Made by a program: the position numbers and the translations under genes. 6,896 nt of DNA from Candidatus Zixiibacteriota bacterium (lineage in GTDB: Bacteria; SM23-81): positions 1 to 6,896 of the forward strand of contig DAOVRJ010000133.1 of NCBI GenBank assembly GCA_030628225.1. The letters run 5' to 3'. Each line of letters starts with the position of its first letter. Position 1 is the stretch's first letter. Under the pieces are notes generated by a model. That model did not search any database. It was not told the origin of the DNA and worked only from the letters and a program-made list of their open reading frames with translations. Positions 2,349-6,873 of this stretch are shown piece by piece.

Positions 2349-2726
2349 TCACTCGCCGATGAGCTGGCCATACTCCTCTGCAGAGAGCAGGTCTTCCAGC
2401 TCCTTCTCGTTGTCCAGTTTGATCTTGATCATCCACCCTTCCCCATAGGGCTCCGAGTTGATGATCTGGGGCGTGCCGTCGAGCTTCTCGTTGACTTCCA
2501 TTACCTCGCCGGATACCGGGGCGTAAATCTCCGAGACGGCCTTCACCGCTTCTACGGTGCCGAAGGGCTCGGCCTGAGTGAGCTGCTCTCCCACCGGTGG
2601 GAGCTCCACGAACACAATGTCGCCCAGCTCTTTTTGCGCATAATCGGTAATGCCCACGATGGCCGTACCATCCTCCGCGCGGATCCATTCGTGTTGCTCG
2701 GAGTACAGCAGATCTTTTGGAACCAT
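2349..2726 (-). CDS. gcvH: Glycine cleavage system H protein (lipoyl carrier)
   Basis: Small cytoplasmic lipoylated shuttle that carries the aminomethyl group from P-protein to T-protein and the reduced lipoate to L-protein (dihydrolipoamide dehydrogenase). At 125 residues it has the normal family length. The N-terminal YSEQHEWIRAEDGTAIVGIT (8-27) and ELGDIVFVELP (33-43) are characteristic. The lipoylation site is FGTVEAVKAVSEIYAPVSGE, with Lys62 as the modified residue, and the C-terminal GEGWMIKIKL strand is intact. The ATG at 2726 has AAAGGG eight bases upstream, a good ribosome binding site. It is the first gene of the gcvH-gcvPA pair and lies downstream of a 246-bp repeat-rich spacer. 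No glycine riboswitch was recognised in that spacer. Confidence 0.97.
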   Translation of the reverse strand: MVPKDLLYSEQHEWIRAEDGTAIVGITDYAQKELGDIVFVELPPVGEQLTQAEPFGTVEAVKAVSEIYAPVSGEVMEVNEKLDGTPQIINSEPYGEGWMIKIKLDNEKELEDLLSAEEYGQLIGE

Positions 2727-2767
2727 GGGTTGGACCCTTTCTGTTTAGATGGTACATGTGGAACGCG

Positions 2768-2795
2768 ATGCGTAATGCGTAATTCGTAATGCGTA
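2768..2795. repeat. Heptamer tandem array, word ATGCGTA (4 units)
   Basis: Four consecutive 7-bp units: ATGCGTA, ATGCGTA, ATTCGTA, ATGCGTA (units begin at 2768, 2775, 2782, 2789). Three are identical and one differs by a single base. The array lies 42-69 bp upstream of the gcvH start. Confidence 0.9.
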
Positions 2796-2807
2796 AAAGG
2801 CTTTTTC

Positions 2808-2835
2808 CGTGTTGCGTGTGGCTTGTGGCGTGGAA
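2808..2835. repeat. Degenerate heptamer array, word CGTGTGG (3-4 units)
   Basis: Units CGTGTTG (2808), CGTGTGG (2815), CTTGTGG (2822) and a decayed CGTGGAA (2829). Neighbouring units differ by one or two bases. The array begins 12 bp after the ATGCGTA array and keeps the same 7-bp period with an unrelated word. Confidence 0.75.
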
Positions 2836-2840
2836 AGACC

Positions 2841-2855
2841 GAGATTCGAGATTCG
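2841..2855. repeat. Short heptamer array, word GAGATTC (2 units plus one base)
   Basis: Two exact copies of GAGATTC (2841-2847 and 2848-2854) and one further matching base. Two units alone would be weak, but the match in period to the flanking arrays makes it part of the same pattern. Confidence 0.6.
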
Positions 2856-2883
2856 TAGAAGCAGAGTTCAACTGCCGGTCACC

Positions 2884-2925
2884 TTTTGCATTTTTCACTT
2901 TTCATTTTTCATTCTGCATTTCTTT
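2884..2925. repeat. Heptamer array, word TTTTTCA (5-6 units)
   Basis: Units TTTTGCA (2884), TTTTTCA (2891), CTTTTCA (2898), TTTTTCA (2905), TTCTGCA (2912) and a decayed TTTCTTT (2919). The CA at the end of each unit keeps a strict 7-bp spacing through five units. The stretch is much more A+T-rich than the genes around it. On the minus strand it lies just downstream of accC. Confidence 0.85.
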
Positions 2926-2963
2926 TCCTACCACCTTTATCAAGCATCCAGAATCTGCCTCTC

Positions 2964-2999
2964 CCAACTCTCTCAACTCGCCGAACTCTCTGAACTCTC
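2964..2999. repeat. Nonamer array, word (C/T)(C/G)AACTCTC, overlapping the accC 3' end
   Basis: Four 9-bp units: CCAACTCTC (2964), TCAACTCGC (2973), CGAACTCTC (2982), TGAACTCTC (2991). The period is 9 bp, unlike the 7-bp neighbours. The second unit contains the accC stop codon (TGA, 2975-2973 on the minus strand), and the third and fourth encode the Glu-Ser-Ser tail of AccC. Confidence 0.85.
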
Positions 3000-4331
3000 C
3001 ATCCCCTCCACAAAAGAGGTATCAAAAGTTCCTGAGCGGAAACGAGGGTCGGCGATGACCCGTTTATGGAATGAAATGGTCGTCTTGGTGCCCTCCACCA
3101 CAAATTCCTCCAAAGCCCTCTCCATGCGCAGAACGGCCTCCACCCGGTCCCGGCCATGGACGATGAGCTTGGCCAGCAGGGAATCGTAGTAGGGAGGAAT
3201 CACGTATTGGGCATAGACGTGGGTGTCCACCCTGGTCCCCGGCCCCCCGGGCACATGAAAGCTGGTGATCTTGCCGGGCGCAGGACGGAACCCATTATCC
3301 GGATCCTCAGCGTTTATGCGACACTCGATGGCGTGGCCGTTCTGAACCACGTCTCTCTGACGGTAACCCAGCGGCTCGCCGGCGGCCAGTCGAATCTGTT
3401 CCTTGATCAGATCGATGCCCACCACCTCCTCGGTTACCGGGTGCTCCACCTGGATACGGGTGTTCATCTCCATGAAGTAATACCGGCCGTCGCGATCCAG
3501 GAGAAACTCCACGGTGCCCGCCCCCTGGTATCCGATGCTCTTGGCCCCCTTTACGGCATCGGCGCCCATCTTCTCTCTCAGCTCGGCGGTGATGGCCGGA
3601 GAGGGAGATTCCTCTACCAGCTTCTGGTGCCGCCGTTGAATGGAGCAGTCCCGCTCTCCCAGTTGGACCACATTGCCGAAACGATCGCCTAAAATCTGAA
3701 ACTCCACATGTCTGGGCTTTTCCATGAACTTCTCCACGTAGAGATCGGCGTTCCCGAAAGCCTTGTCGGCCTCGCTGGCGGCCATCTCGAACGCCCGCCG
3801 GAGGCTCTCCTCCCCGGCAGCGATGCGCATCCCCCGCCCGCCACCTCCGGCGCTGGCCTTGACCATCACCGGATAGCCGATCTGCTCAGCCACCTGCAGG
3901 GCATGTTCGGCGTCCCTGAGAATACCCTGGCAGCCGGGGATGACGGGCACTCCGGCCTTGAGCATGACCTCCCGGGCATAGGATTTGTTGCCCATCTGGC
4001 GGATCATCTCTGCCGAGGGGCCGATGAAGGTGATGCCGCAATCCTGACAGATATCGGCGAAGTTCGGGTTTTCCGCTAAAAAGCCGTACCCGGGATGGAT
4101 GGCCTCCACGTTGGTCAGCTCCGCGGCGCTGATGATGCGGGAGATGTTCAGATAGCTCTCCGCGCTGGCCGCAGGACCTATGCAGACGTTCTCATCGGCA
4201 AAACGAACGTGCAGGGAGGCCTCGTCGGCCTCGGAGTAAACCCCCACGGTGGAGATGCCCAGCTCCTTGCAGGCCCGTATCACCCGCAGGGCAATCTCAC
4301 CTCTATTAGCGATGAGGATCTTAGAGAACAT
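2973..4331 (-). CDS. accC: Acetyl-CoA carboxylase, biotin carboxylase subunit
   Basis: Cytoplasmic ATP-grasp enzyme that carboxylates the biotin on AccB with bicarbonate and ATP, the first half-reaction of malonyl-CoA synthesis. The 452-residue length matches the family (about 450). The N-terminal [20 protein letters not shown] domain (2-21) and [10 protein letters not shown] (79-88) are present. Active-site positions correspond to E. coli AccC: Lys116, Lys158 before the glycine-rich loop [10 protein letters not shown] (161-170), His208, Glu275, Glu288, Asn290, Arg292 and Glu296 in [14 protein letters not shown], and Arg338. It starts 6 bp after the pilT stop, so translation is probably coupled; the Shine-Dalgarno is weak. 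Oddity: residues 445-452 (ESSESSAS) are encoded by the nonamer repeat. Homologues acting in pyruvate or propionyl-CoA carboxylases are similar, but accB in the same cluster favours AccC. Confidence 0.95.
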
Positions 4332-6730: not shown

Positions 6731-6758
6731 GATCCTAGATGCTAGATCCTGGATGCTT
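6731..6758. repeat. Heptamer array, word GATCCTA/GATGCTA (4 units)
   Basis: Units GATCCTA (6731), GATGCTA (6738), GATCCTG (6745), GATGCTT (6752). GAT begins every unit with exact 7-bp spacing, and the variable positions alternate C/G at the fourth base. Confidence 0.85.
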
Positions 6759-6841
6759 GTTAAGAACAAAACTTCGGAAAATGCAGAGTCAACCTGGCAT
6801 ATACTCAGAATCGAGCATTTCACTTACCAGGATCCAGCATC
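6738..6841. repeat. Inverted repeat, 15-bp arms with 74-nt loop
   Basis: Arm 6738-6752 pairs with 6827-6841 at 14 of 15 positions. The arms come from the two heptamer arrays. The loop has no obvious gene. It could form a long stem in single-stranded DNA or RNA, or simply reflect the same repeat family inserted in both orientations. Confidence 0.6.
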
Positions 6842-6873
6842 CTGTTTTTCATCCAGTATCCAGGATCCGCCTT
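6827..6873. repeat. Heptamer array, word CCAGGAT/CCAGCAT, reverse complement of the 6731 array
   Basis: Units CCAGGAT (6827), CCAGCAT (6834), a decayed stretch (6841-6852), CCAGTAT (6853), CCAGGAT (6860) and a decayed CCGCCTT (6867). The words are the reverse complement of the array at 6731-6758, so the two form an inverted pair. Confidence 0.8.

Follow-up and report, generated by a model that had tools for sequence, protein, structure and literature searches.

Heptamer arrays in the gcvH-accC spacer

The stretch of DNA analyzed here, referred to as the window (6,896 nucleotides of a Candidatus Zixiibacteriota genome), carries gcvPA, gcvH, accC, pilT, accB, and efp, all named from their translations, and is collinear with candidate division Zixibacteria SM23_81, the closest relative compared, at ~76% nucleotide identity. 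The spacer between gcvH and accC holds a row of short tandem arrays, part of which forms a dispersed composite, and a second dispersed element lies at 6731 to 6870, as follows.

2349 to 2726, minus strand: gcvH (glycine cleavage H protein), flanking gene, 74% identical to SM23_81
2768 to 2796, plus strand: heptamer array (ATGCGTA)4; TRF 4.1 copies, 90%; attained by 0 of 2,000 shuffles
2808 to 2834, plus strand: degenerate heptamer array CGTGTTG CGTGTGG CTTGTGG CGTGG; 15 of 20 lag-7 matches; 2 of 2,000 shuffles
2839 to 2856, plus strand: heptamer array (GAGATTC)2.3, word family B; TRF CGAGATT at 2840 to 2855, 2.3 copies, 100%
2840 to 2930, minus strand: composite of C array, core, and B array, a dispersed repeat of ~91 bp; 23 other copies, 74 to 90% identity
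2857 to 2883, minus strand: nonrepetitive core between the C and B arrays, around GGCAGTTGAACTCTGC; kept in 13 aligned copies
2884 to 2923, minus strand: heptamer array TGAAAAA/TGCAAAA/TGAAAAG, word family C; TRF TTTTTCA at 2884 to 2921, 5.4 copies, 80%
2943 to 2956, plus strand: word family A (CATCCAG), ~1.5 units, by direct reading of the sequence
2959 to 3003, plus strand: 9-bp array of word family E (AACTCTCNN); lag-9 z = 4.5
2973 to 4331, minus strand: accC (biotin carboxylase), flanking gene, collinear with SM23_81
6731 to 6870, minus strand: second element, whose inverted arms, (GATNCTG)n and (CCAGNAT)n, enclose a conserved ~65-bp core; 13 further substantial copies

Autocorrelation of positions 2768 to 2925 revealed self-similarity at lag 7 (z = 8.0), lag 14 (z = 5.5), and lag 21 (z = 3.9), values attained by none of 2,000 dinucleotide shuffles, while all remaining lags from 2 to 20 stayed at z < 2. 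The four arrays of unlike words with a shared 7-bp period that a preliminary description had reported are thus real. Taken singly, the TTTTTCA array reached a score attained by 0 of 2,000 spacer shuffles, and the GAGATTC array, short at 2.3 copies, was weak, its score being equalled in 54 of 2,000. TRF recovered three of the four arrays and missed that of CGTGTGG, which is degenerate yet above chance. The G-rich strand of the ATGCGTA array is directed inward, from the gcvH side. Moreover, the row extends past 2925 into the 9-bp array, and period 7 is therefore not universal in the spacer. This 9-bp array intrudes on the 3' end of accC (2973 to 3003), where it supplies the last eight AccC residues (ESSESSAS) and the stop codon; the C-terminal end of AccC is different in SM23_81. 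A known RNA family was rejected, as Rfam gave no credible match within the spacer.

The spacer measures 257 bp in the window and ~81 bp in SM23_81, where it is free of arrays, and an ancient conserved site was rejected on these grounds. Among 24 orthologous spacers, arrays occurred in four of this genome and three of SM23_81, with a single spacer carrying them in both, in different words. An empty site with preserved flanks was not found for the gcvH-accC spacer, the SM23_81 counterpart diverging along its whole length, so a clean insertion is unsupported.

Genome-wide periods and a small vocabulary of words

In 88 kb of sampled spacers from this genome, 88 arrays were detected at lag 7 and 20 at lag 9, compared with zero to two at each other lag between 2 and 13 and ~0.2 arrays in shuffled spacers. 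The spacers of SM23_81 yielded 43 arrays at lag 7, seven at lag 6, and five at lag 9. Genes were called from ORF length only. The first sample of 660 kb was picked mostly arbitrarily and had the same period peak with fewer arrays, and a second batch of contigs from the same genome was picked for B arrays. The scan over spacers that the preliminary description had proposed therefore returned the sharp 7-bp peak across several words that it had predicted, dropping off steeply to lags 6 and 8 in both genera. Lag 7 was also the commonest in the spacers of other genomes (79 loci), with 14 arrays against one to four at each other lag.

The 88 arrays fell into only 10 word clusters, where random heptamers would give ~50, a result that does not depend on word B alone, the second batch having inflated this word in the pooled vocabulary and counts. 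Likewise, the 43 arrays of SM23_81 formed 10 clusters against ~30 expected, and five necklaces were common to both genera. Read on the G-rich strand, the main words are GATNCTG (A), GAGAYTC (B), TGMAAAR (C), a TTAGGGA-like word (D), GAGAGTTNN (E, 9 bp), and GGARCTN (F). The units of the four arrays are thus different and unrelated inside the spacer, as originally described, but this does not extend to the genome, across which the same words recur. ATGCGTA is a rare word in it, with matches no more numerous than those of a reversed control. Word B had, at two or fewer mismatches, ~200 matches here (a count raised by the B-selected batch), against 56 in SM23_81 and no more than one in each of 39 other genomes. 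A universal vocabulary was rejected, A and B being nearly restricted to this family; word C exceeded its reversed-pattern control in some other genomes. In one genome outside the phylum, two places (C6:49980-50205 and C30:79847-80072 of G097) hold words A and C together, their starts separated by 201 bp, as if a related composite were present in a distant lineage. In another, unrelated genome, a heptamer array, GAGATTGGAGATTAGAGATTAGAGAC, lies near position 1501 of locus L174 between two tRNA-like sequences (tRNAs judged by eye).

Arrays as parts of dispersed elements

The GAGATTC and TTTTTCA arrays are the two arms of the composite at 2840 to 2930, for which any match covering 80 bp or more of the 91 was counted as a copy. 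Across 13 aligned copies, little changes in the order of C units (TGCAGAA TGAAAAA TGAAAAG TGAAAAA TGCAAAA) or in the core GCAGTTGAACTTTGCCTTTACG; it is the B array that differs in length, by whole heptamers. This order of variant units indicates that the composite was copied as a block, and hence that copying, rather than growth in place, accounts for most of these arrays. The ATGCGTA and CGTGTGG arrays (2768 to 2834) were not found inside any dispersed composite. Only GAGATTC and TTTTTCA thus sit demonstrably in a dispersed block; for ATGCGTA and CGTGTGG, such an origin is suggested by their setting.

Copies of the element at 6731 to 6870 are 71 to 93% identical and absent from SM23_81, and the C-core-C, F-core-F, D, and E families have the same layout. 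Inverted arms are found in elements of types A, C, D, E, and F, most of which are more stably folded than shuffles, on one strand or both (z of about -3 to -7). They are not found in the C-B composite, whose arms are different words that do not pair; neither this composite (z = +1.5) nor the whole spacer from 2750 to 3010 (z = +1.9) folds above shuffles. Cores are shared among spacers, repeats connect 45 spacers, and ~21% of the sampled spacer DNA has a match in another spacer. Neither constant ends nor target-site duplications were seen in the alignments of the composite and of the 6731-to-6870 copies, and the element alignments contained no GTAG or CGTC tag of the kind that marks the palindromes of REPs and REPINs, which go with a RAYT gene. 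Y1 transposase (Y1_Tnp) genes are present in the genome, without a link to the elements.

A separate GC-rich dispersed element of ~140 bp, which starts with GAGGGGGTAGCGGAGGAC and ends with CCTCCCCCTC, has at least 21 copies here (among them L063:1482-1622, L075:2843-2983, L072:185-324, L060:1851-1950, and L225:3590-3740) and none in SM23_81. RNAalifold predicted a multistem fold from five copies, one of them truncated, in which 16 of 47 pairs were changed on both sides, and Rfam gave no credible match to the element, a candidate structured repeat or RNA.

Inward strand polarity

The arrays point inward: on either side, the G-rich strand leads away from the flanking gene and into the spacer, whatever the gene orientation, in both genera. 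Among neighboring arrays of labeled word families no more than 120 bp apart, 40 pairs were G-inward and three G-outward, with the G-inward sign of each family set from the data (one free sign each); for adjacent pairs of the same family in this genome, the counts were 16 and 0. A GC-skew test, independent of the words and of the family signs, gave positive-to-negative ratios of 32:12 in left and 14:32 in right spacer halves here (P = 7e-5) and of 19:4 and 8:20, respectively, in SM23_81 (P = 2e-4), P values that are optimistic because the counted arrays are partly mutual copies. Array-free spacers had no skew polarity. The polarity holds at the 3' and 5' ends of genes alike and was reproduced in the first 660-kb sample with fewer arrays.

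Other genomes displayed a weak trend (P = 0.15 for GC skew and 0.01 for purine skew; 18 arrays, including a masked N run), and cyanobacterial plasmid stretches displayed no polarity among 12 arrays. Inverted pairs of heptamer arrays with other words were noticed at L107:2356-2588, L109:3471-3882, and L110:2176-2289, from records titled Acidobacteria, Klebsiella pneumoniae MAG, and Cloacimonadota, respectively, of which the Klebsiella name looks doubtful. The inward rule is new across words and has already been published for one word in Xanthomonas, according to the available text of PMC4692102.

Origin of the array row

Taken together, the array row is probably a chain of pieces of small, noncoding, modular repeats dispersed through Zixibacteria spacers, and the best explanation of the whole is that STRR-like heptamer arrays form the arms of such repeats and gain and lose whole units. 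The elements are dispersed as blocks with conserved unit order and mostly whole-heptamer differences, they turn over between genera, and their G-rich strands point inward. The basic element would comprise a 7-bp tandem array (9-bp for one word), a conserved core of ~30 to 70 bp, and another array with reversed strand polarity, usually an inverted copy of the first, which would enable it to fold back. Transposition in trans may have spread the copies, as may ectopic recombination and template switching from one arm to another; arm units may be gained and lost through slippage or recombination; and different modules piling up in one spacer would place unrelated heptamer words side by side. If modules accumulate in this way, the four arrays need not have originated independently in place. 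A sequence-blind process counting 7 bp, which the preliminary description had put forward, is not needed for the gcvH-accC spacer and is not supported there, given the small vocabulary, a dispersed composite that keeps the order of its units, and a second period of 9 bp in one other word. The suggested protein reading helical phase fared no better: gaps between neighbors of the same word were multiples of 7 in 5 of 19 cases, with ~2.7 expected, and register was not kept.

The dispersed-repeat model is silent on why the unit is 7 bp, and it is here that in-place duplication irrespective of sequence, for instance slippage set by a polymerase contact of ~7 nt and acting on each word separately, has its appeal. 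The sharp peak in two genera, with lags 6 and 8 far lower, and the lead of 7 bp in other genomes are consistent with it. Moreover, most bacteria have heptamers as the most frequent unit of their long SSRs, for which a polymerase-contact explanation has been proposed, as far as the secondary sources relate (Mrazek et al. 2007, cited in PMC4679880; PMC4692102). Nevertheless, cores and unit order conserved in dispersed copies, the small vocabulary, the convergent polarity, and a 9-bp class that uses a separate word make it a fairly unlikely origin of the row, although it may be the source of unit gain and loss and of the 7-bp unit size. Selection keeping the arrays as binding sites or RNA hairpins, such as iteron-like sites or bidirectional terminators, would fit the conserved cores, the several families that fold as hairpins, and the share of array-bearing spacers, which is highest between convergent genes here (0.39, versus 0.26 for divergent and 0.16 for codirectional genes). 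Yet spacers between divergent genes contain arrays too, SM23_81 shows no enrichment of convergent spacers, a single one of the 24 orthologous spacers carries arrays in both genera (in different words), and the composite of the window lacks a hairpin and the inter-array register is not kept, so we regard selection as improbable. A terminator role in particular was rejected as inconsistent between the two genera and incompatible with a composite that does not fold.

Telomere-like end growth, in which templated or terminal synthesis at a break extends the 3' end of each flank with G-rich heptamers before the ends are joined, predicts G-rich arrays to the left and C-rich arrays to the right of the junction. 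A polarity that follows the side of the spacer rather than gene direction, and extends to unlike words and to the nonpairing C-B composite, agrees with this prediction, and the TTAGGGA/CCCTAAC family is similar to telomeric DNA. However, the cores are conserved multicopy sequences rather than random junctions, and composites are copied as blocks, which makes end growth extremely unlikely as the source of the row. Inverted-symmetric elements explain most of the polarity, and least well that between unlike words; that this polarity across unrelated words and unlike neighbors reflects directional end addition or end joining, building 7-nt repeats at breaks beyond the copying of inverted elements, appears highly improbable. 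Chance, low complexity, or an assembly artifact might be suspected from the weak GAGATTC array, but is refuted by the lag-7 signal (z = 8) and by dozens of arrays over many contigs of two genomes, and we give it practically no credence.

Relation to known repeats and implications

The arrays belong to a known kind, the heptamer STRRs, as a variant built of modular dispersed elements. They are tandem, noncoding 7-bp units in several copies, occurring in many spacers with few word families. Known STRRs are described as plain arrays without a conserved nonrepetitive core, whereas here composite and core are copied as a block, which places the elements as an STRR variant rather than a plain member. 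In the available text of PMC4692102, the STRRs cited for Calothrix and Nostoc are likewise tandem and intergenic, with several degenerate heptamer words per genome, but belong to another phylum, with few convergent pairs reported in Nostoc. The GGGAATC repeats of Xanthomonas (Rehm et al. 2015, PMC4692102) share a 7-bp unit with variant positions and a dispersed, mostly intergenic location. Their 70 and 75 array pairs, in close convergent orientation with always one array per strand, have the polarity found in Zixibacteria. They are a single, G-quadruplex-forming word, for which the available text describes neither a dispersed core nor a multiword composite, while the Zixibacteria arrays comprise ~10 words, cores, and composites; GGG tracts are absent from the words of the gcvH-accC spacer, and its arrays do not carry four or more G-tracts each. 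The TAACTGA repeats of marine Beggiatoaceae (PMC4679880) are also intergenic heptamer arrays, patchy over phyla, but consist of one word, almost all direct and mostly just upstream of start codons, with single-base variants seldom repeated. The composite at 2840 to 2930 and the 6731-to-6870 family are, like MITEs, short noncoding dispersed repeats.

Galileo and Foldback elements have terminal inverted repeats composed of internal repeats. The Zixibacteria elements differ from these and from MITEs and REPINs in that their arms can be unlike words. MITEs, REPINs, and REPs share with them short length, noncoding nature, dispersal, and, as far as types A, C, D, E, and F are concerned, inverted arms, according to the available parts of PMC3116915 and PMC3733652.

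The excess of heptamers in bacterial spacers has been on record since 2007, without an explanation as far as the secondary source goes (Mrazek 2007, cited in PMC4679880). Here, many words of one genome are arms of dispersed composites, and their polarity connects them with the GGGAATC arrays that Xanthomonas carries as convergent pairs. The source of 7-bp periodicity thereby becomes testable, as shared mobile architecture versus polymerase slippage versus end synthesis, with a polarity statistic that can be computed on any sequenced genome.
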